Source: Natrinema amylolyticum (lineage in GTDB: Archaea > Halobacteriota > Halobacteria > Halobacteriales > Natrialbaceae). From it: a stretch of 64,000 nt of DNA. The DNA lies in assembly GCF_020515625.1 (NCBI RefSeq), contig NZ_JAIWPJ010000001.1, forward strand, positions 62,001 through 126,000, read 5' to 3'. Shown here piece after piece: positions 11,509 to 57,699 of this stretch (the stretch's first letter is position 1; each line of letters begins with the position of its first letter). The notes under the pieces are model-generated. The model did no database searches, was not told the origin of the DNA, and worked only from the letters and a program-made list of their open reading frames with translations. The position numbers were made by a program, and so were the translations under genes.

Positions 11509-14500
11509 ATGGCCCGCGGTCTCGAGGACGCCGAGACGACCCAGGTACGCGCCCTCGCCGTCGGTTCGTCCGAGTGGATCCGGACGGCGACGGCGGGGCT
11601 CGCCGACGAGTCAGTCACCGTGACGGACTCGGTCTCGACCGTCTCCGACCTCAGCGACGAACGGCTCGACACGGCCGACTGCGTCCTGACCGACGACCGG
11701 GACGTTCTCGGCGTCGTCGACGAGACGTATCCGGTCGTCTACGCCGTCGATCCGGCCCGAAACGAGTCGATCGACGACCTTCGCGGCGATCCCGAGGTGA
11801 TCGCCAAGACGACGATCCAGGAGCCGCGGCTCCTGGCTCAGCGGCTTCAGCGGGCCGTCGAGTTCGCTGCGATGCAGCGATCGACGACCCGGCAGACGGA
11901 GTGGTACCAGACACTGATCGAACACTCGTCGGACCTCCTGCTCGTCGTCGACGCTAACGGTGAGATCACGTACATCAGTCCGGCAGTCGAGCGCGTCGGG
12001 GGATTCGATCCGGACGATCTCTGCGGAACCGACATCCTCGAGTACGTCCATCCCGACGACAGTCAGTCGGTGGCCGACTCGTTCGACGCCATCTGTGAGG
12101 CCGACTGCGGAACGACGCGGACCATCGAGTACACGTGTCGACACTCCGATGGCTACTGGTACGTCCACGAGGCCGTGCTGACGAACCGACTCGAGGACGG
12201 GATCGTCGACGGCGTCGTCGCATCGATTCAGGATATCACCGAGCACCACCGCATCGAACAGGAGTTGGACGAGTCGTTCAAACGAGTCACCGACGCGTTT
12301 TACGCCCTCGACGCGGACTGGCGCTTTACGTACGTCAACGACCGTGCGCTCGAGCAACTCGATGTCACCCGACCCGATCTGCTCGGCCAACGGATTCTCG
12401 ACGTGTTCCCGGAGATGAAGGGAACGGTGTTCCAGCGGGAGGCGATCGAGGCGATGGAGCGACAGGAGCCCCGAACGGCCGAAGGGTATCTCGAGCGCTA
12501 CGACGCCTGGATCGAGGCTCGCATCTATCCGTCGCCGTCGGGCATCTCCGTCTACTGGCAGGACGTGACCGAGCGCGTCGAACGCGAGCGGGACCTGGCC
12601 GACCGGACGGAGCGCTTGCAGACGTTAGTCGAGAACGCCCCGGTCGTCCTGTTCGTCCTCGACGACGAGGGAACCTTCACGCTCTCGGAGGGCCGCGGCC
12701 TCGCGAACCTCGGCTTCGATTCCGACGAGATCACCGGTCGGTCGGTCTTCGACGTGTTAGCGGACTACCCCGACGCCCGCGCGGACGCGAGAGCGGCCCT
12801 CGAGGGGGAGACTGTCCACTCGCAGCGGCTGCTCGGGGACCGAGTCTTCGAAGCGTGGTATCGGCCGATTTCGGACGAGAACGGGGCCATCGATCGGGTT
12901 ATCGGCGTCGCGAACGACGTCACCGAACGGGTTCGGTATCAGGAGGCGCTCAACGCGTTACACGAGGCGACCACCCACCTATTGACCGTCGAATCGAAAG
13001 CGGACGCCTGCGAGTACATCGTCGACGTCGCGACCGACGTGCTGGATATAGACAGCGTCCTCTACCGGTTCGACGACCGGGAGAACGAACTCGTTCCGGC
13101 GGCGCATTCGCCGGCCCTCGAGTCGACGCTCGGCTCCCCGCCGCGGCTCCGGCCGAACGACGGCATCGCCTGGGAGACGTTCGTCACCGGTGAATCGGCC
13201 GTCTACGACGATATCGGCAACGAGGCCGCCCTCTCTGACGAGTCGACGGCCGCTCGGAGCGGCCTCTACGTCCCGCTGGGAGAGCATGGGGTTCTGGTCG
13301 CCCTCTCGACCGATGCGGGCGAGTACGACGAGGACACCATCGAGCTCGCCCGGCTGTTCGCGGCGACAGCGGAAGCCGCGCTCGATCGAATCGGCCGGAC
13401 CCGCCGGCTGCACGACCGCGAGCGCGAACTCGAGCGACAGAATCGAAACCTCGAGCGGCTCAACGACGCCAACGAGGTCCGCCAGGATATCGAGCAACTC
13501 CTCCTGCTAGCCGACTCCCGGACCGAGATCGAGCGCGGTGTTCCCGAGCGCCTCGCCGACCTCGAGTCGTGTTCGCTGGCCTGGATCGGCGAACCGGACC
13601 CCAGCGGGAACGAACTCCGGTCGCGGTCTCGCGCCGGGTCCGACCGGGGCTATCTCGACGCGGTGACAGTGACGACGGTCGACGAGTCGGCCGCCGAACC
13701 GACGGGACGGGCGGCTCGCACGCGAGACCCGGTCTACGTCGATAACGTCGCCGAGTCGGTCCACGACGGCGAGTGGCGAGGCGATGCGCTGTCGCGAAAC
13801 TTCCAGTCCGTGTACGCAGTCCCGCTCGTCTACGACGGGTTCCTCTACGGCGTCCTGTCGATCTACGGCGAGGAACGAGACGCGTTCGACGAGGCGCTTC
13901 GGTCGATGCTGGCGGAACTCGGCGAAACGATCGCCTACGCGGTCGACGCCGTCAAACGGAAGAACGCGCTCGTGGACGACGACTACACCGAAGTCGAACT
14001 CGAGGTCGCGGCCGACGCGACCCTCTGTCGGCTCGCGGACGTCCTCGACGGATCGCTCACGTACGAGGGCGCGACGAGGCGGGCGGACGGGTCACAGATC
14101 GTGTTCGTCGCTGCCGAGGGACCGACGGACGAGTCCGTCGCGACCATCGACCATGGGACGATCGACGGAATCGCCGCGGTGTCGACGATCGCCGAACACG
14201 ACGGCGAGACGCTCCTCCAGGTGCGGCTGACCGAGCCCTTCCTCGGGCCCATCGTCGAGACCCACGGGGCGCGGTTACGAGCGTTCGGCGCGGACCCCTC
14301 GGGCGGTCGCGCACTCATCGACGTCCCGGACACCGCCGAGGTCCGCGACGTCCTCTCCGATATCGCCCGGAGCGGCCCGGCGGTGTCGATGGTCGCCCGA
14401 CGCGAACAGCCCACGGAGGGGCCGCCGGCACTCGGCGGCCCCGCGCGCACTGCCTTGCTCGAGCGGTTCACCGATCGACAGCGCGAAGTCGTTCAGACGG

Positions 14501-41450: not shown

Positions 41451-42524
41451 TTACCCCAGTTCCACAGCCTCTCGAGGGTTGAACTCGACAGGTGCTTCTA
41501 ATTCCGGATCGACCGCTTCGTACCGCTTCGCGTTCGTTTCGCCAGGCATTCTGATCAAGCTGTAGTCGGCCATTTTGTCAAGATAGTTCCAGGCCTGCCG
41601 CCAACTCACAGGATTGATTCCCTGCCCTTCGAAGATCTCGCTTTTGAATTGCCAGTAGGTCGTTTTCATCTCGCTCCCGGAGATCGGCCCGATCACGCGC
41701 ACGAGCTCGTAGAGCCGCTGGTGAGGCAGTGGCAGCGACCGGAGGTTCGCCTTCCGGATCTTCCGCTTTGCTCGCTCGAAGGCATCCGCGACGTCCTCGT
41801 CGTGGAAGTGATCGTGCTTCCGCTCGAGGGCCAGCTCCGCAGCGGACAATACCGACTTGATCGCCCACCGTGCAACACCACCGGTCTCGTCGGCGATCCA
41901 TTCAAGGTCACCGTTCCGAGTTGGGTCGCCCTCGAGGCCGTGCTCGACGCGGGGCTGGAGAATGTCGACGAGTTCGTCGACGCCGTACTTCCGAAACTCG
42001 ATTTGAGAGTCACCACGGAAGTGAGACCGGAAGTCACGATCGACGCGGTTGAGCCACTCGACCTGCTGGTGGGCGATCGCGACCACGGAGACGCCGTCGA
42101 CGGCGAACAGATCCTCGAGGACGTCCAGGTCAGGGATGACGTCGGCCTCGTCGAGTACGAGCACGTAGGGGCCATCGCCGACGGCTGTCGCGAGTCCGTC
42201 GACGAGCTCGTCACGGGGCTGGTTGCGATGCACTACCCCACTATTGGAGTGTTCGGTGACCGCTTCGTGGATGATCCCGTTGCGAGTCTTCCCTGAGCAC
42301 TCGACGACAGTTGACTCGAGCCCCCACTGCTGCTGGAGTTTGCGAAGCATCCACCTGGCCGACGCGGTCTTCCCGACGCCGCTCGGGCCATGGATTAGCA
42401 CGTCTTCCGCTCGCCGGCCGTATCCCGTCGGCTTGAGCGCCCTCGAGAGCGCGTTTAACTCCGTATTCCGATGGAGGATGGGGGTAGGGTAGTCATCTCT
42501 GAAGACGTACCGAGACTCAATCAT
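41451..42524 (-). CDS. Orc1/Cdc6-type replication initiator, plasmid class
   Basis: 357 residues. AAA+ ATPase with Walker A GPSGVGKT (46-53), Walker B YVLVLDEAD (about 119-127), sensor-1 region VVAIAHQQVEWLNRV, and lid. A C-terminal winged helix (about 270-340) has LPLPHQRLYELVRVIGPIS and a YWQFKS phrase. It is shorter than chromosomal Orc1/Cdc6 proteins (about 400) and belongs to the extrachromosomal type. It probably starts replication of the element when free. Its 5' 160 bases and promoter are duplicated at 43466-43683. Confidence 0.87.
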   Translation of the reverse strand: MIESRYVFRDDYPTPILHRNTELNALSRALKPTGYGRRAEDVLIHGPSGVGKTASARWMLRKLQQQWGLESTVVECSGKTRNGIIHEAVTEHSNSGVVHRNQPRDELVDGLATAVGDGPYVLVLDEADVIPDLDVLEDLFAVDGVSVVAIAHQQVEWLNRVDRDFRSHFRGDSQIEFRKYGVDELVDILQPRVEHGLEGDPTRNGDLEWIADETGGVARWAIKSVLSAAELALERKHDHFHDEDVADAFERAKRKIRKANLRSLPLPHQRLYELVRVIGPISGSEMKTTYWQFKSEIFEGQGINPVSWRQAWNYLDKMADYSLIRMPGETNAKRYEAVDPELEAPVEFNPREAVELG

Positions 42525-42579
42525 AACGGACCGTTTCGATGGGTGTCATAAAAGCCGTAATGGGCGGCGTTTCGAAACA
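42361..42579. repeat. 219-bp direct repeat, copy 1 (5' end and promoter of orc1)
   Basis: Runs from inside the Walker A coding region to the palindrome GTTTCGAAAC (42569-42578). It matches 43466-43683 at almost every base apart from about ten changes and one deleted G. The region upstream of orc1 includes a TATA-like TTTTATGA (reverse strand) within GGGTGTCATAAAAG (42541-42554). Confidence 0.85.
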
Positions 42580-43465: not shown

Positions 43466-43628
43466 GACGCGGTCTTCCCGACGCCGCTCGGACCGTGGAT
43501 TAACACGTCCTCCGCTCGCCGGCCGTATCCGGTCGGCTTGAACGCCCTCAGGAGCGCGTTTAACTCCGTATTCCGGTGGAGGATGGGGTAGGGTAGTCAT
43601 CTCTGAAGACGTACCGGGACTCAATCAT
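43466..43628 (-). pseudogene. Truncated, frameshifted copy of the orc1/cdc6 5' end
   Basis: The first 54 codons of an Orc1/Cdc6 gene in the same orientation as the intact gene. ATG at 43628, loss of one G near 43588 shifts the frame, and homology stops after the Walker A codons at 43466. Its promoter and GTTTCGAAAC are preserved to 43683. The copy ends where module A begins. Confidence 0.85.
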
Positions 43629-43683
43629 AACAGACCCTTTCGATGGGTGTCATAAAAGCCGTAATGGGCAGCGTTTCGAAACA
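43466..43683. repeat. 218-bp direct repeat, copy 2
   Basis: Second copy of 42361-42579 in the same orientation, 1.1 kb away. With copy 1 it brackets the DUF7344 and HalOD1 genes. The left inverted end of module A follows after nine bases. Confidence 0.85.
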
Positions 43684-43862
43684 GCTGAGGAAGTCATAGA
43701 ACGTTCCCACGCCACCTCTCTGCAACTACCCGACGAACGGTAAATACAGGTGAAGTACTTAGCGCAGGTGAATTGCATAGTAACACTGAGTCCGACATTT
43801 TATATTGGTTTCATAGCAAACCCACGGGAGAACATTATAGTGTTCCCCGGAGTGAAGTGGAT

Positions 43863-44057
43863 ATGCGGATTGTCCTAAACCAGTCAACGGAAACGATCCA
43901 TAAACCGTCACATCACACCACTTTTCAGCCGACAGCCTGTGGCGCACTCAGACATGTCTCAGACGACCATATTTATGTGACTACCGAGGAAGAGATCGAG
44001 GCCAATCACAAGATGGATCATTGTGGGCGTTGCTTTGAGGATGCAGGTGGATATTAG
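43863..44057 (+). CDS. 64-residue Cys/His protein with CGRC motif
   Basis: ATG 43863 (MRIVLNQSTETIHKPSHH); a TTG 90 bases upstream is in frame but less likely. The pattern I-H-K-P, TACGALRHV, TTEEEIEANHKMDHCGRC and FEDAGGY is distinctive. Cys and His residues in these blocks could bind one zinc ion. I know this as a conserved haloarchaeal small protein type often near HalOD1 genes, without a function. It is cargo of module A. Confidence 0.65.
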   Translation: MRIVLNQSTETIHKPSHHTTFQPTACGALRHVSDDHIYVTTEEEIEANHKMDHCGRCFEDAGGY

Positions 44058-44070
44058 CAGAAAGTCGTAC

Positions 44071-44349
44071 TCAAGCCGCTGGTTGAAGTAGAAGATACTC
44101 GCCTCTCTCAACGGTGATGTGAAAGTTACTGAAGACGAATTTGACTGTCCCATCCTGCTGTGACTTACACAGGTCATCCAACATGTCTGGATCTATTGTC
44201 TCATATAATGGGGTTAAATTGCAAGGATCGCACTCTTTTAGTGAACTTACAGCACGAATAGTCGCTATACTCACTGATTCTCCTTCCGGAATTTCATACT
44301 CTACTATCACATGATCTTCCGGGAGTGAGTGTGGACTGTCCGGGGGCAT
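44071..44349 (-). CDS. HalOD1 protein
   Basis: ATG 44349 (MPPDSPHSLPED) gives 92 residues; an upstream ATG at 44481 is possible. Core VSIATIRAVSSLKECDPCNL, LYETIDPDMLDDLCKSQQDG and FVFSNFHITVERGEYLL. It is convergent with the CGRC protein, 13 bases apart, within module A. The resemblance to the HalOD1 protein at 43075 suggests exchange of such genes between cassettes. Confidence 0.78.
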   Translation of the reverse strand: MPPDSPHSLPEDHVIVEYEIPEGESVSIATIRAVSSLKECDPCNLTPLYETIDPDMLDDLCKSQQDGTVKFVFSNFHITVERGEYLLLQPAA

Positions 44350-44562
44350 ATTCTGAGTTACTCGGATAATCCTTACACCTGAAGTGGGGTGGTCCTGTCG
44401 GGTGCGCTCGCAGGCGTATCGGTCCAAACCACCGGCTACAATCCCTGTGAGTGGATTTTTCTTTTCACTTGAGAGTCTCATCTGGGGGTGTGATCCATCC
44501 CGGCTTACTCTGTACTGTCCACCAAGTGCTACGATAACTCCTTCGCCTAAACTGAGCGACCA

Positions 44563-44766
44563 CTACCGTCGCAAATCGAGCCGAATCTCGTGGTGCATTC
44601 GCGTTGTATATTCAGCACGGCTCTGCCAACATCTCCGATAGCTAATAGAAATACCAGCGTTAGACACGCACCTGTACTTGCCAGTCAGCACACTGTATGG
44701 ATATTCCCATTTCACAGATATTATCGCACTTTCCTGATCATTAATCACAAAGAGATTTTTCTCCAA
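44563..44766 (-). CDS. Possible 67-residue protein
   Basis: TTG 44766 would start it, next to the stop of the upstream 42-codon gene (TGAGTTG arrangement). The sequence NLFVINDQESAIISVKWEYP and later RCWQSRAEYTTRMHHEIRL have balanced composition. No motif, no ATG: weak candidate. Confidence 0.3.
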   Translation of the reverse strand: MEKNLFVINDQESAIISVKWEYPYSVLTGKYRCVSNAGISISYRRCWQSRAEYTTRMHHEIRLDLRR

Positions 44767-44767
44767 C

Positions 44768-44896
44768 TCATTTAGAACTAAGATCGTTGGTAATTTTGTA
44801 AGTTAGAGCCAAAATTCCAAGAATAATTCCGCTCCCTATGCCTAATAAAAACGGCGATTTTTTAGGAACAGAGGCATATATTTCTACTCTCTCCAT
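44768..44896 (-). CDS. Possible 42-residue single-helix membrane protein
   Basis: ATG 44896 to TGA 44768-44770. A short polar head with lysines (VPKKSP) precedes a helix FLLGIGSGIILGILALTY, then a polar tail KITNDLSSK. A typical small membrane protein in form, but the AT-rich setting makes chance frames common. Positively charged residues before the helix suggest the N-terminus stays inside. Confidence 0.4.
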   Translation of the reverse strand: MERVEIYASVPKKSPFLLGIGSGIILGILALTYKITNDLSSK

Positions 44897-45219
44897 CGTC
44901 ACATTGGGTTGGACTACTGACACAGCCCCATATATTCCTCTGAACTATATTGTTATCCAATAAGTATTGTTAATATATCGCTGTGTGAACACATAGGAAT
45001 TCTATTATATCCAACTTATCTTCTATAGTGAGCATGGTTTTGACCAAGGCTTGAATGAGTTCAGTGTGTCCTGAAAATTCGCCTAAAGAGGCGTTTTCAG
45101 ATTATACTACACTACCACACCCTGTCTGGATGTATCGGTTGGCTCACCGGAATAGGGGTGAAAACAACTCCATGAGACTAGTTCTATGACACCTCCACAG
45201 CTGCGAAAACAGGAATGGA
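44897..45219. other. AT-rich non-coding segment with the right end of module A
   Basis: No gene seen. Bases 45131-45197 are the conserved right subterminal sequence (TATCGGTTGG, TGAAAACAACTCCATGAGA) shared with 57067-57133. Confidence 0.5.
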
Positions 45220-47307: not shown

Positions 47308-47840
47308 ATAGGGCCGTTATCGGCCATTTTGGACGGTAACAGGGCTGTATTCCTGCTATCGATCCAACAGAACTAATTGGTTACAGTACTGAGATGCTGA
47401 TGGCGAGGGGTGGGGGATCCGGCCGAAACATCCACTACCAGATCGCTCCGAGACATACCTCTCGCCACTCCTGAGATCGGCCCACTGAACGTCCGTTGGC
47501 CCGGTTTCAGGCCCCACCCAATTGACACACCACTTGAGGGATGGAGGTTCCGACGTTGGCCTCTGGCCGGCGCTTCTGAAGATCACTCTGCCTTTCTCCA
47601 AAATCGATCAGTATTGCTGGGGTCGATGGCTTTATCACCTTTAACTCAAAATCTCTCCTGTCCGGGTAACTCACATCCAAAACTCACATCCAAGTTGGTA
47701 GCACAACTTTCACCAACCCGGACACTTCCTAATTGAGATTAGCAGCGGATAGTTGCTATACCACACTATGTTGAGGTTCCCACATAGGATGATACGGCCT
47801 CTTCTTCAAGAGCAAAAAACGATAGGCAGCAGTAACTGGC
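47308..47840. other. Non-coding stretch holding direct-repeat copy 1
   Basis: No gene supported. It contains the first copy of the 200-bp repeat (47376-47583) and then AT-rich sequence up to the TrmB stop. Confidence 0.5.
47376..47583. repeat. Long direct repeat, copy 1
   Basis: About 205 bases from ATTGGTT to GGCGCTTCT that match 50492-50693 at roughly four of five positions, including CTCCGAGACATACCTCTCGC and GGCCTCTGGCCGGCGCTTCT. No open frame is conserved between the copies, so it is not simply a gene duplicate. Confidence 0.75.
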
Positions 47841-49953: not shown

Positions 49954-50143
49954 CAGAATGTCTGGTTGAGGTTGTGAGTGAGACGGCTGAGGGCGAGTTC
50001 AGGGAATTGCTTCCACCAATGCTGAGAATAGGGGCGCATCGTATTTCCGTTTGAGACGAGAGCCCATCGTCTCGTTCTGACCTTCGTCGCTAAATTCGGG
50101 ATCGGGGAGTGTACTCAGAGATGGTTTCTTCGAGGAAAGCCAC

Positions 50144-50310
50144 AAAAACGCCCGGATGGGCACAGGGTAACGGCCGCCGGGCGGTGGGACAAGATGAGAT
50201 CGAGGTGGATGTTGGTTGGATCGTCCATGTCGCGCAGAGAACGCGACAGTGAATATGTTCGCCGGATCCCTTATCAACCCCTCCCGATTCCAGCATACTC
50301 GGAATCGGCA
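50144..50310. repeat. Copy of the 57.17-57.33 kb repeat (EVE-gene tail)
   Basis: About 170 bases matching 57167-57335 at roughly 80 percent, with identical blocks GTTGGATCGT and AACGCGACAGTGAATATGTTC shortened at either side. Same orientation. At 57.2 kb this sequence supplies the C-terminal codons of a truncated EVE-like gene. Confidence 0.7.
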
Positions 50311-50491: not shown

Positions 50492-50693
50492 ATTGGTTCC
50501 AAGACGCAGTTGGCGAGGGATGGGGAGATCCGGTCGTCTATCCGCTACCAGATCCGCTCCGAGACATACCTCTCGCCATACCTGAGATCGGTTCATCAAA
50601 CGCCATGATATCCAGATTTCAGGCCCACCCTGATTGACACACCACCTGAGGGGATGGGGTTCCGACGTCGGCCTCTGGCCGGCGCTTCTCGAG
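50492..50693. repeat. Long direct repeat, copy 2
   Basis: Second copy of 47376-47583. The 2.9 kb between the copies carries the TrmB and HTH-10 genes. Confidence 0.75.
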
Positions 50694-50901
50694 ATACCAA
50701 ATTACGTTGGAGACACCGGTATCAGTATACCGACGATATGTAGAAGTACGGCAGGGCGCCACATCATCACCTGCGCCATACACGCACACTGCTCTGCCAG
50801 CGTACCTTCATAACCCACCCAACACCCTATCTTTTACGAGCAGCTGTATCCAGTAGCGCCGAGCTTGATGTTTATATACGAAGCCGCGGCCAACGCCAGC
50901 G

Positions 50902-51069
50902 ATGCTCTCTGACCGACAGCAAGACCTCCTGGTCGCCGTCGCATTGACCGAGTTCAGCATTCACTACGAGCAAGCTGATCCCGAACTCTCGAGAGAAGCC
51001 TGGCAGCTGGCCGCGGATCACCTCGTCGATCACGATGTCGAGCCCGCCGAGGTCGTCGCCACAGTTTAG
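50902..51069 (+). CDS. 55-residue helical protein, copy 1
   Basis: MLSDRQQDLLVAVALTEFSI, then DPELSREAWQLAADHLVDHD and VEPAEVVATV: two or three amphipathic helices, acidic. Preceded by GTTTATATACGAAGCCGCGG, a promoter conserved word for word in copy 2 (53389) apart from a few changes. Substitutions between the copies are mostly silent or conservative, so selection on the protein is likely. Function unknown. Confidence 0.7.
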   Translation: MLSDRQQDLLVAVALTEFSIHYEQADPELSREAWQLAADHLVDHDVEPAEVVATV

Positions 51070-53275: not shown

Positions 53276-53388
53276 TACCGCATATATCTATCAATAATTT
53301 TCTAACCGGCTTCTCCTCTAATTGTGAGCACTAAAGCCAGCAGGACTGAGTCAAAGGTTTATATCAGAAGCCGCGGCTAACGTCGGCG

Positions 53389-53565
53389 ATGCTATCCAAC
53401 CGACAGCGAGACCTCCTGGTCGCCGTCGCACTGACCGAGTTCAGCGTCCACTACGAAGCCGCTGATCCCGAACTCTCGGAAGAAGCCTGGCAGCTGGCCG
53501 CCGATCGCCTCGTTGAGCACGATGTCGAGCCCGCCGAAGCGGTCGGGGAACTCGAGATTGGATGA
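53389..53565 (+). CDS. 58-residue helical protein, copy 2
   Basis: MLSNRQRDLLVAVALTEFSV, DPELSEEAWQLAADRLVEHD and VEPAEAVGELEIG. About 80 percent identical to copy 1 over 50 residues; only the last residues differ, where the sequence runs into module B. Its TGA (53563-53565) lies inside the 15-base inverted end of that module. Promoter GTTTATATCAGAAGCCGCGG is shared with copy 1. Confidence 0.7.
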   Translation: MLSNRQRDLLVAVALTEFSVHYEAADPELSEEAWQLAADRLVEHDVEPAEAVGELEIG

Positions 53566-56500
53566 GGGTGTCATAGAATAGTTCGCACGCCCCTCCGCGA
53601 CTACTGATGAACGGTAAGTACAGGTGAAGGCGTTACCAGAGTAGCTATTGATCTATCCAATGGCTGTTAAAAATCGCGTGCTAAATACAGAGGATAGATT
53701 CAGAGCAGTGGCTCCCGTCAGCGGTGTCCTAAGGAGATCCTCACCTGACGCGAGACAGGGGCTGGATTCCGGAAGGAGAGCAACCCGCTATCTCGTGATA
53801 TCCAATCCACGACCGGTTCCGGACCCGGTCAATACACGATGAATTTTTCCTACCCGAGATGCATTACCGGTCATATGAGCGATCAAGCCGGTACTACAGA
53901 GGGCGGGTTTTGGGCGGACGCTACCGGCGAGCGCGCGCTCGATCGTTACTCGAAGCTGGTCAATATGGTAGACGACGGGATCTACCAACTCGATGCCGAG
54001 GGGCGGTTCGTCGCTGTCAACGACACCATTGTCGAGGTTACCGGCTACTCCCGGGAGGAGCTTCTCAACGAGTACGCGTCGCTTGTGCTCGCCGACGAGG
54101 ACGTCAGTCGTCTCCAGCGCGAAATCGACCGACGGCTCACCGACGACGACCGCCGGGACGATCCGATCGAATTCACGGCCCGGACAGCTGACGGCGACGC
54201 GATCCCGTGTGAACTGGAGTTACACCTACTCGTCGAGGACGGCGCGTTTCAGGGGTCCATAGGAGTCGTACGCGACATCACCGAACGCAGGCAGGTAGAA
54301 CGCGACCTCCAACAGGAACGTGATCTCCTCGAGGGGGTCGTGGAAACCAGCCCCGTGGGGATCGCGGTTGTCGACGCCGACGGCAAGGTAACGTTCGCCA
54401 ACGAGCACGCCGAGGAAATTTACGGTCGCTCTCGCGACGAACTCAGCCAGTTCTCCCACGACGACCCTCGCTTGGACCTCGTCGACGAGAACAGCGAGCC
54501 AGTCGAGAGGGGGGAAATGCCGTTCGACCGCGTAGTCACACAGGAAGAGGCGATACACGATCAGATCCTCGGCCTTCGCAGACCCTCTAGTGACCGCGTC
54601 TGGGTGTCAGTCAACGGCGCCCCGCAATGGAACGAAGACGATGAACTCGAACGGGCCGTGTTCGCCTTCGAGGATGTCACCGAGCAACGGGAGAACGAAC
54701 GCGAGCTTGAAAAGAGCGAGCGGCGGTACCGGACGCTCATTGAAAACTTCCCGAACGGAGCGGTGGGTATGTTCGATGAGAACATGCGGTACACCGCCGT
54801 TGGCGGACAGCTCCTGAAAAGTCTCGATATAGAGCCGGAGGACCGAATCGGGAGCACTATCCACGAACTCCATCCGGACGTCCTCGTCGAACAGATCGAG
54901 CCGTACTTCGCGGGGGCACTCGATGGAGAAGCCGATTCCTTCGAGATCGAGTTCGGGGGCCGACACCTCCACGCGCACGCTCTCCCCGTCAGAGACGCCA
55001 CAGACGAGGTATTCGCCGGCATGGTCGTCGTCAGGGACGTCACCGAGCGCAAAGAATACAAACGCGAGATCGAGCGGCACAACGAACAACTCGAGACCAT
55101 GTTCGAGGTGCTCCCGGTCGGTGTCGTCGTCGCAGAGGCCGACGGGCAGATCGTCGAGGCCAACGAGAACGCACACGACATCTGGGGCGGGGACGTATTC
55201 GACGCAGATTCTGTCGCCGAGTACGAACAGTACCCAGTGAGATGGGCCGAATCGGGTGACCGGGTCGAGCCTGAGGAGATGACCCTGGCTCGCGTGATCA
55301 ACGGCGAAGAGGTGGGCGAACCCGAAATCTTCGAGATCGAGACTGCTGATGGCGAGCGCCGCCTCGTCGAAGCGGAGGGCATGCCGATCCGAGACGAGAA
55401 CGGCGAGGTAGATCGCGGCGTCATCACCTTGAGCGACGTCACCGAGCGCATGGAGGCCCAGCGCCAACTCGAGGAATCTGAACGTCTCTACCGAACGCTC
55501 GCCGAGCACTTCCCGAACGGTGTCGTTGGCGTCTACGACCACGACCTTCGGTACACGCTGGCGGCGGGCGAGAAGGCCGGCGACCCAGCGCCCAGCGCAG
55601 AGGAGGGCCTGGGGACGCGAATGCCGGATCTCTACCCCGACGACGCCGTGGCCGACCTCGAACCGCTGTTCCGGGCCGCTATCGAGGACGGCGAAAGCGG
55701 GAGTATTGAAACCCAGGTTGTCGGTCGGCACTGGCGAGTGTGGGCCATGCCGCTACGGGACGGTGACGGCGATATCTTCGCCGGTCTGAGCTTCGCCCAA
55801 GATATCACCGAGCGCAAGCAGCGTGAACGCGAACTCGAACGGACGCTCGGCTTACTCGAGCGGACCGAGCGTATCGCGGACGTCGGCGGGTGGGAGATCG
55901 ACCCGAAGACCCAGGACGTGTTCTGGACCGACAACATCTTCGAACTGCTAGAGGTGCCCGGCGACGAGGAACCGCCGCTGGACGAGGCGCTGGACATGTA
56001 CCACGAGGAGGACAGGCCGCGGGTCGAGGCGGCCATCGAGGACGCGCTCGCCTCTGGCAATCCCTTCGACATCGAGGTACGGCTCCGGACCGCGGCCAGC
56101 AGTGAGGTGCGCTGGCTCCGGCTACAGGGAGTCCCGGAAACTGCCGACGGCGAGGTCGTCTCGTTCCGCGGTGCGGCCCAGGACATCACCGAGCGCAAAC
56201 AGCGCGAACAACAACTCGAAAAGCTGATCGAGAGACTCGAAGAATCGAATGAGCGCCTCGAACAGTTCGCCTACGCCGCATCGCACGACCTGCAAGAACC
56301 CCTGCGGATGGTGTCGAGCTACCTGCAGCTGATCGAACAGCGCTACGGGGACGCCCTTGACGAGGACGGCGAGGAATTCCTCGAGTTCGCGGTTGACGGC
56401 GCGGATCGGATGCGCAACATGATCGAGGGACTCCTCCAGTACTCCCGAGTCGAGACACAGGGCGACGACTTCGCGCCCGTCGATCTGGACGATGTTATCG

Positions 56501-57133
56501 CAGACGTCCACAACGATCTCCAGGTCCGGATCGAGGAGAACGACGCCGAGATAACCGCCGACGCGTTACCCGTCGTGGAGGGGGACGGCGGACAGTTACG
56601 CCAGGTGTTCCAGAACCTGCTTGACAACGCCATCGAGTATAGCAGCGACGGACCGCCCCGGGTTAATATCTCGGCCGAACGAAACGAGGGCCAGTGGGTT
56701 GTCTCGGTTAGCGACGAGGGGATCGGTATCGACCCATCCGACACCGACCGCGTCTTCGAGGTGTTCCAGAGCCTCCACGCGAATGACGAGCACACGGGGA
56801 CGGGAATCGGCCTCGCGCTGTGCGAGCGCATCATCGAGCGCCACGGTGGCGAGATATGGGTCGAGTCCGAGCCCGGCGAGGGAGCGACGTTTTCCTTTAC
56901 ACTCCCTGCGGCGAGTGACCAGAAGAGATAGGTTCGCTTTACCACCCGGTTTAATTTATTGGTTTGATACCGCCCACAGTGATGTGTACGCGCCCTGTAC
57001 TCCGTACACTCCTGTGGACTTAGTCCGTATCTGATAGAATCCTCGTTGGTCAGTGCGCACACCTACGTATCGGTTGGTTCTCCGAAATCGGAATGAAAAC
57101 AGCTCCATGAGAATCGTACTATGACACCCTCAT
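53562..57133. mobile_element. Module B: 3.6-kb inverted-end element carrying a PAS kinase
   Basis: ATGAGGGTGTCATAG at 53562-53576 and its exact complement at 57119-57133 are perfect 15-base inverted ends. Inside the ends lie conserved stretches also found in module A: left CACGCC, ACGGTAAGTACAGGTGAAG; right TATCGGTTGG, TGAAAACAGCTCCATGAGA. The only cargo is the histidine kinase gene. No transposase frame exists between the ends. Confidence 0.68.
53875..56931 (+). CDS. Six-PAS sensor histidine kinase, element-borne
   Basis: ATG 53875 (MSDQAGTTEGGFW) is chosen by likeness to the chromosomal kinase start MSDRGAVTG; 1018 residues. Six PAS units lie at about 20-145, 150-290, 293-405, 410-530, 535-645 and 655-780; the last is a PAS_3 type with GGWEIDPKTQDVFWTDNIFE. 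HisKA is at about 795-865 (H in AASHDLQEPLRM) and HATPase_c at about 900-1012 (FQNLLDNAIEYSS, DEGIGI, GTGIGLAL). No transmembrane segment. The kinase half is closely similar to that of the 2680-6042 gene. The receiver at 40894 is a possible partner. It fills module B alone. Confidence 0.9.
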   Translation: MSDQAGTTEGGFWADATGERALDRYSKLVNMVDDGIYQLDAEGRFVAVNDTIVEVTGYSREELLNEYASLVLADEDVSRLQREIDRRLTDDDRRDDPIEFTARTADGDAIPCELELHLLVEDGAFQGSIGVVRDITERRQVERDLQQERDLLEGVVETSPVGIAVVDADGKVTFANEHAEEIYGRSRDELSQFSHDDPRLDLVDENSEPVERGEMPFDRVVTQEEAIHDQILGLRRPSSDRVWVSVNGAPQWNEDDELERAVFAFEDVTEQRENERELEKSERRYRTLIENFPNGAVGMFDENMRYTAVGGQLLKSLDIEPEDRIGSTIHELHPDVLVEQIEPYFAGALDGEADSFEIEFGGRHLHAHALPVRDATDEVFAGMVVVRDVTERKEYKREIERHNEQLETMFEVLPVGVVVAEADGQIVEANENAHDIWGGDVFDADSVAEYEQYPVRWAESGDRVEPEEMTLARVINGEEVGEPEIFEIETADGERRLVEAEGMPIRDENGEVDRGVITLSDVTERMEAQRQLEESERLYRTLAEHFPNGVVGVYDHDLRYTLAAGEKAGDPAPSAEEGLGTRMPDLYPDDAVADLEPLFRAAIEDGESGSIETQVVGRHWRVWAMPLRDGDGDIFAGLSFAQDITERKQRERELERTLGLLERTERIADVGGWEIDPKTQDVFWTDNIFELLEVPGDEEPPLDEALDMYHEEDRPRVEAAIEDALASGNPFDIEVRLRTAASSEVRWLRLQGVPETADGEVVSFRGAAQDITERKQREQQLEKLIERLEESNERLEQFAYAASHDLQEPLRMVSSYLQLIEQRYGDALDEDGEEFLEFAVDGADRMRNMIEGLLQYSRVETQGDDFAPVDLDDVIADVHNDLQVRIEENDAEITADALPVVEGDGGQLRQVFQNLLDNAIEYSSDGPPRVNISAERNEGQWVVSVSDEGIGIDPSDTDRVFEVFQSLHANDEHTGTGIGLALCERIIERHGGEIWVESEPGEGATFSFTLPAASDQKR

Positions 57134-57174
57134 TGGATAGCTATCGCTAAGCGTCAAATCACCTTGAAAAGACC
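56932..57174. other. Right flank of module B
   Basis: No gene. AT-rich GTTTAATTTATTGGTTTG follows the kinase stop and may end transcription. The conserved right subterminal sequence is 57067-57133. Confidence 0.45.
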
Positions 57175-57699
57175 TCAAAAGGCCGCCCGGATGGGCGCAG
57201 GGGGATGGCCGCCGGACGGTATGGACAAGATCGGGATGGGTTGGGTGCTGGTTGGATCGTGTCGCGCGGTGGGGAACGCGACAGTGAATATGTTCACCCT
57301 GACCCATATCAACCCCGCTCCGATTCCAAGTATGTTGGAATCGTCCTCTTTCTGTAGCGAGGATCCTCTCCCTTCCAAGAGTGGCTCGCGAAGAACAGCG
57401 CCGACCTCGAGTTCATCTGGCCAGAGCGGTTTATCTTTCTTTGATTTTCTCCCTACTACACCATATCCAATGATTCCCCACTCTGTGTTATCGCTAAATT
57501 CGCGGTCTGTCCGAAAAAGGACAACATCTCCGATCGATAATTCGTCATACCGGGCTTCTAGACCTTCTCGCATTCCCCACAAGTTATGGCGATAGGCTGT
57601 GAGCCAATTCTCGGGATTTCCCATTGCTTGTTTGAACGTCAGATTCGCATTAGCGGTAGACAACATCTGTCCACCGGTAGAATCAGCTCTATCTGACAT
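57175..57699 (-). pseudogene. EVE/PUA-like domain gene with replaced C-terminus
   Basis: ATG 57699. Residues 1-135 look intact: LTFKQAMGNPENWLTAYRHN, LWGMREGLEARYDELSIGDV, VLFRTDREFSDNTEWGIIGY, then DDSNILGIGAGLIW. That is the beta-barrel pattern of EVE/PUA-type domains, which recognise modified bases and often accompany defence nucleases. From residue 136 on (VRVNIFTVAFPTARHD) the codons come from the 170-bp repeat also present at 50144-50310, so the native end has been lost. The chain is therefore called a truncated, possibly inactive copy. Confidence 0.55.

Follow-up and report, generated by a model that had tools for sequence, protein, structure and literature searches.

Two members, here called A and B, of a large and apparently undescribed family of haloarchaeal gene cassettes lie in the DNA of Natrinema amylolyticum that was analyzed (the window, 64,000 nucleotides). 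A and B are non-autonomous cassettes, probably moved in trans by the transposase of an insertion sequence (IS). Each cassette consists of an asymmetric left and right end around foreign cargo, with the outer ~16–28 bp as terminal repeats that also terminate a ~1069-bp IS of the DDE_Tnp_1 type. Most likely, the IS transposase would act in trans on the cassette ends, and insertion would generate a 7–9 bp target duplication. After insertion, the ends would be passed on together with the site, and the enclosed cargo would be replaced or inverted, most likely when a second cassette serves as partner for homologous recombination or gap repair via the common ends.

Ends and precise insertion of A and B

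The boundaries of the two cassettes were located with models of the left end (R1) and the right end (R2), built from sequence only, and from the target copies that flank the elements:

43687–45195, + strand: cassette A, whole element (left and right end models; target duplication; same site occupied by another cassette in genome G053, locus L192)
43680–43686: A left target copy, AACAGCT, read from the sequence (same target, AACAG(T/C)T, around L192)
43687–43757, + strand: A left end, terminal repeat GAGGAAGTCATAG and conserved subterminal region (R1, 56.5 bits, E 1.3e-16)
45127–45195, + strand: A right end, terminating in CTATGACACCTC (R2, 65.3 bits, E 2.6e-19)
45196–45202: A right target copy, CACAGCT, 6/7 identical to the left copy
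53389–53565, + strand: 58-aa ORF into which B is inserted (target gene); the first bases of B contribute its stop codon (ORF; congener comparison)
53564–57131, + strand: cassette B, whole element (end models; perfect target duplication; unoccupied target in congeners)
53557–53563: B left target copy, ATTGGAT
53564–53629, + strand: B left end (R1, 60.7 bits, E 6.4e-18)
57058–57131, + strand: B right end (R2, 72.8 bits, E 1.2e-21)
57132–57138: B right target copy, ATTGGAT

The terminal inverted repeats of A and B are 12–13 bp long and read outwards as GAGGGTGTCATAG. A sequence-only reading of the window had delimited A by inverted GTCATAG ends. This motif is indeed present in A at 43693 (+) and 45184 (-), and in B at 53570 (+) and 57119 (-), but the actual boundaries lie a few bases further out. 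GTCATAG alone was rejected as a diagnostic motif because it occurs 6 times in the window, which is not above the chance expectation of 4.6.

The ends are asymmetric, ~70 bp each, and 79% identical for the left pair and 84% for the right pair, so the earlier estimate of about three quarters was slightly low. Self-comparison of the window gave 78.9% identity for the left ends (43686–43755 vs 53563–53629, E 6e-7) and 83.9% for the right ends (45132–45193 vs 57067–57128, E 6e-10). The alignment of the A and B ends that had been proposed as a check placed the similarity far above chance on both sides: the local alignment score was 39 for the left ends and 42 for the right ends, whereas at 11,777 other window positions the best score was 16 in either case. 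The target duplication is 7 bp in both cassettes, perfect in B and 6/7 in A. A is 1.5 kb and B 3.6 kb long, and both contain intact ORFs.

The left flank of B (the end of the 58-aa gene) and its right flank are contiguous in a congeneric genome (locus L200), which has one target copy and no B. L200 reads CTCGAG-ATCGGGT-AACTATCGCTAAGCG, compared with CTCGAG-ATTGGAT-(B)-ATTGGAT-AGCTATCGCTAAGCG at the B locus. The two flanks also abut in L201–L204 and L206. Similarly, L179 is the unoccupied target of an acetyltransferase cassette (L178), with a less clean duplication.

The 58-aa gene (MLSNRQRDLLVAVALTEF...), together with ~200 bp downstream, forms a repeat at 50136–50307, 50838–51069, 53326–53565, and 57168–57343; this repeat is the target of B and has several copies in congeners. 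Directly left of A, a direct duplication that takes in the 5′ part of an orc1/cdc6-like gene plus the sequence upstream (42361–42579 vs 43466–43683, 94% identical) brackets a DUF7344 + HalOD1 gene pair at a locus that is variable in relatives (L193–L198). A 190-bp direct repeat, 81% identical, was found at 47392–47583 and 50502–50695 and also occurs twice in L206.

Cargo and inner modules of A and B

The following features lie between the ends:

43863–44057, + strand: A cargo, 64-aa ORF with a CGRC motif (no Pfam match)
44071–44481, - strand: A cargo, HalOD1-domain protein of 136 aa (PF18545, E 1.3e-15)
44551–44690, + strand: displaced right inner module and apparent truncated right end in A (common to L192, L116, L131, and L132)
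44768–44923, - strand: 51-aa ORF in the extra right segment of A (ORF only; no Pfam match)
53675–53708, + strand: B left inner module, CGTGCTAAATACAGAG... (motif at +115; 1 mismatch to TGCTGAATAYAGAG)
53839–56931, + strand: B cargo, sensor histidine kinase rich in PAS domains; 1030 aa if translation begins here, but the start may be a later ATG (PAS_4, HisKA, HATPase_c)

The ORFs and the PF18545 match bear out the initial description of the A cargo as a CGRC-motif protein, a HalOD1 protein, and tiny genes. The 64-aa ORF may encode a small zinc-binding protein, and the 51-aa ORF probably encodes a membrane peptide. Because the right module of A, at 44604, is followed by ~0.45 kb and a second right end, the structure suggests that A may be a fusion of two cassettes.

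Homologs of the A HalOD1 protein, ~70% identical, were found in other genomes. At 11 loci with such homologs, the left-end model had no match, and just two matches, both weak and partial, came from the right-end model; these loci are therefore probably not cassettes. Relatives of the B kinase are the cargo of L141 and L145, in two other genera, and the L145 kinase has the opposite orientation to that of B.

A subset of cassettes has a longer common end with an inner module (TGCTGAATAYAGAG...TTCAGCA) near +115 and its complement near -138, and the module resembles a palindrome. The inner motif is not a common genome word, since it matched 17 times in the source genome at ≤1 mismatch compared to once for the reversed control. 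Opposite-strand pairs of TGCTGAATAYAGAG, 0.6–1.8 kb apart, were found outside the window on G000:C2 and C10 (e.g., L225/L232, L226/L227, L228/L234, and L240/L241), and L225 and L233 have GAAGGTGTCATAG-like termini. Such pairs are probably further, diverged cassettes.

A widespread cassette family with paired ends

With the right end of B as a DNA query, relatives were found in 29 of the 125 genomes of the family. The profile search of both ends across Halobacteria, which the sequence-only reading had proposed, reached further: at E 0.01, the right-end model matched 106/125 family genomes and the left-end model 103/125, counts that may include the ends of IS copies, as the termini are common to both. 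At 1e-6, the right-end model matched 124 of the 392 genomes of the order, including families other than that of the window.

The ends also pair outside A and B. Among the 150 best matches to each end, left and right ends ≤4 kb apart stood in the correct order and strand in 67 cases, compared to 6 in other arrangements (2 reversed, 4 opposite). This gave 64 paired elements outside the genome of the window, about 0.3 to 3.8 kb in length. The family has members in Natrialba aegyptia, Natrialba taiwanensis, Natronococcus jeotgali, Natrinema zhouii, and Natrinema sp. SYSU A 869. By a fixed score, a target duplication was recognized in 28/64 pairs, compared to 8/1203 shuffled flank pairs used as a control. 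These duplications are mostly 6–9 bp, and about half of the paired elements have none that is recognizable. The common ends, their pairing elsewhere, and the target duplications confirm the initial proposal that A and B are two members of one family. In some members, end extensions reach ~160–190 bp.

A viral reservoir of the cassettes was considered and set aside, as neither the right-end pattern nor the HalOD1 protein of A had a relative in viral contigs. No earlier description of the family was found in the open-access papers covered, which on this subject yielded only mobile insertion cassettes and MITEs in general and Haloquadratum MITEs. The terminal 13-mers did not occur there, and for the inner motif and GTCATAGAAC only unrelated subjects appeared among the matches listed.

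tblastn with the IS transposase detected no transposase in the 64 elements, in A, in B, or elsewhere in the window. The cassettes are thus non-autonomous, as first proposed, and do not qualify as autonomous transposons, which would encode their own transposase. Their cargo includes an enzyme of the tryptophanyl/tyrosyl-tRNA-synthetase family, SnoaL-like, LUD, cupin, cold-shock, GNAT, FKBP, PIN/MazE, TrkA-C, TrmB, HTH_10, and DUF7344 proteins, a glycine transporter, an ABC transporter together with its binding protein, a response regulator, histidine kinases, and many small membrane proteins. For A (CGRC/HalOD1) and B (PAS histidine kinase), the cargo had been characterized as unlike and regulatory; across the family, it is not mainly regulatory. 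The main cargo ORF runs in either direction (28 vs 30), so neither end is a fixed promoter.

One 1.7-kb cassette in Natronococcus jeotgali (G087, L134), with an 8-bp duplication, has a class I aminoacyl-tRNA synthetase of the W/Y type as its only cargo; judged from its sequence, this enzyme appears TrpRS-like. L082–L087 (284–300 bp) are cargo-less and contain a GC-rich hairpin-forming segment with T-runs, conserved between genera in some cases. This segment is possibly a small RNA or a MITE core. A known RNA was rejected for these ~290-bp elements, which had no Rfam match and folding z values of only -2.1 to -2.6.

Candidate mobilizing IS

The candidate mobilizer is an IS of ~1069 bp with a 330-aa DDE_Tnp_1 transposase. 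It was left unnamed because its matches to the NCBIfam IS1182 and IS5 models were weak and all far below cut-off. The IS termini are GAGGGTGTCATAGAAC, in common with the cassettes. Beyond this sequence the match is partial and extends to about 28 bp; strict identity covers only ~16 bp. The target duplications of the IS are 7–10 bp, and its copies had no common target sequence by eye, so a strong site preference is not obvious. Since the cassettes have no transposase and the IS has the same termini and duplication length, the simplest reading is that the IS likely mobilizes the cassettes in trans. The initial proposal of mobilization in trans thus gains support as the best reading.

It is unlikely that another, undetected transposase moves the cassettes and that the IS just happens to use these termini as well. 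In favor of such a transposase, the conserved subterminal 40 bp of the cassettes are missing from the IS, and some cassette-rich genomes (G000, G019, G027, G028, G043, G047, and G092) contain no intact IS copy; in the source genome, a 30-residue remnant of the IS transposase is all that was detectable. However, the absence of the IS is explicable by its later loss or by transposition before transfer, and the identity of termini and duplication lengths argues for the IS. The IS transposase, found in 61/125 genomes, also co-occurs with strong left ends (E below 1e-10, a threshold that we set): it was present in 39/58 genomes with such ends compared to 22/67 without (p 1.6e-4, not corrected for kinship), leaving 19/58 strong-left-end genomes without transposase at that threshold. 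Finally, L039 is an IS/cassette hybrid: an IS end and part of the transposase lie at one side, and the opposite side is a cassette right end.

Same sites with unlike cargo

Six sites have conserved flanks, target, and ends in different species but unrelated cargo:

A/L192
L083/L136
L094/L135
L092/L119/L127
L115/L122/L145 (L103 has one flank in common)
L090/L124–L125 (conservation reaches the element on one side and begins only at some distance from it on the other)

Flank identity is roughly 83–93% over ≤2.5 kb at the best sites and 71–79% at the site of A. Homology ends at about +60 to +85 and starts again at about -70 to -90. In the congener genome G053 (L192), the site of A is occupied by a LysE-type transporter (PF01810, E 7.5e-40) in place of CGRC + HalOD1. 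The nearest relative of an end is often its same-site counterpart: similarity is 0.97 for L083/L136 (next 0.77), 0.91 for L092/L119 (best off-site 0.76), and 0.94 for L094/L135 (0.88). In addition, the cargoes of L136 and L138 are 81% identical over 1.8 kb within ends that are only 64–68% alike, and the cargo is inverted relative to the ends. L180 combines the left flank of one site with the right flank of a neighboring site, as expected of recombination between cassettes. Apparently, the ends stay with the site while the cargo is exchanged in place.

If such exchange never occurred, same-site cassettes with unlike cargo would be independent insertions into hot spots. We regard this as quite improbable, because repeated independent insertion does not readily account for ends that are mutual nearest relatives by a margin at several sites, nor for the L136/L138 cargo within dissimilar ends. 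The identical targets at these sites do fit hot spots, as do the L115/L122/L145 group and A/L192, in which same-site ends are not each other's closest relatives.

In-place exchange may also have dedicated sequences, although we doubt it: the long ends and inner inverted modules would together form a cargo-exchange platform, on which cargo is swapped or flipped by recombination at modules or ends while the cassettes stay long at fixed genomic docking sites. Two breakpoints of the L136/L138 inversion, at +136 and -142, adjoin the inner modules, and the other two are further off. Such a platform, if real, would be an archaeal functional counterpart of integrons, made from transposon ends.

That A and B resemble each other only through local promoter or regulatory sequence can be practically dismissed: nothing was found in its favor, and, even if the ends could still carry expression signals, the similarity stops exactly at the target duplications, the ends pair, the main ORF runs in either direction, and the unoccupied targets, with the flanks of B contiguous in congeners, refute it.

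Significance and comparison with known systems

The cassettes provide Natrialbaceae-type and other Halobacteria with a concrete and testable vehicle for the movement of single genes; among those carried are a tRNA synthetase, transporters, regulators, and a toxin-antitoxin pair. That HalOD1, HTH_10, PAS kinases, and similar regulators are patchily distributed may be explained in part by such movement. The cargo differences at the same sites open the turnover of accessory genes at fixed loci to direct testing, and other haloarchaeal genomes can be annotated with the two end models.

PATE or IS605-type elements have neither terminal inverted repeats nor target duplications; the cassettes have both and are therefore not of this type. 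Integron cassettes have an attC site, depend on a tyrosine integrase, lie in arrays, and make no target duplication. As a functional analogy only, they resemble the haloarchaeal cassettes in being mostly single-gene mobile units of unrelated functions that are mutually exchanged. The target duplications, terminal inverted repeats, transposon ends, and scattered rather than arrayed positions of the latter argue against an integron cassette.

Haloquadratum ISH2-type MITEs depend on a transposase in trans and have the terminal repeat and duplication length of the parent transposon, and one haloarchaeal MITE type has a short expressed non-transposase ORF (PMC3119063). The cassettes have parent-type terminal repeats and duplication lengths in common with these MITEs, and probably also mobilization in trans. 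MITEs are, however, short, nearly all non-coding, and of one sequence per family, whereas the cassettes reach ~3.8 kb and carry many unrelated cargoes. With 1.5 kb and 3.6 kb and intact ORFs, A and B are not MITEs in this sense; only the ~290-bp cargo-less members resemble them.

Mobile insertion cassettes (MICs) are known from the Bacillus cereus group (MIC231/IS231; Chen et al. 1999, De Palmenaer et al. 2004, as cited in PMC2266710 and PMC6542083). By the accounts in these sources, MICs have IS-like ends, no transposase, a passenger gene, and reliance on a transposase from elsewhere. The haloarchaeal cassettes likewise have terminal inverted repeats that match an IS (GAGGGTGTCATAGAAC in common with the DDE_Tnp_1 IS, partial to ~28 bp), passenger genes without a transposase (tblastn negative in the 64 elements, A, B, and the window), and target duplications of IS length (mostly 6–9 bp, compared to 7–10 bp for the IS). 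They differ from the MICs of those accounts in several respects: the hosts are archaea, the transposase is of a different type, the cargo ranges far more widely, asymmetric conservation of the ends extends past the terminal repeat, and one occupied site can hold different cargo in different species. MICs and coding MITEs are thus the closest known kinds, and the family is a haloarchaeal variant with apparent in-place cargo exchange, set apart from both by its cargo breadth, by ends that are asymmetric yet conserved, and by cargo that differs at the same sites.
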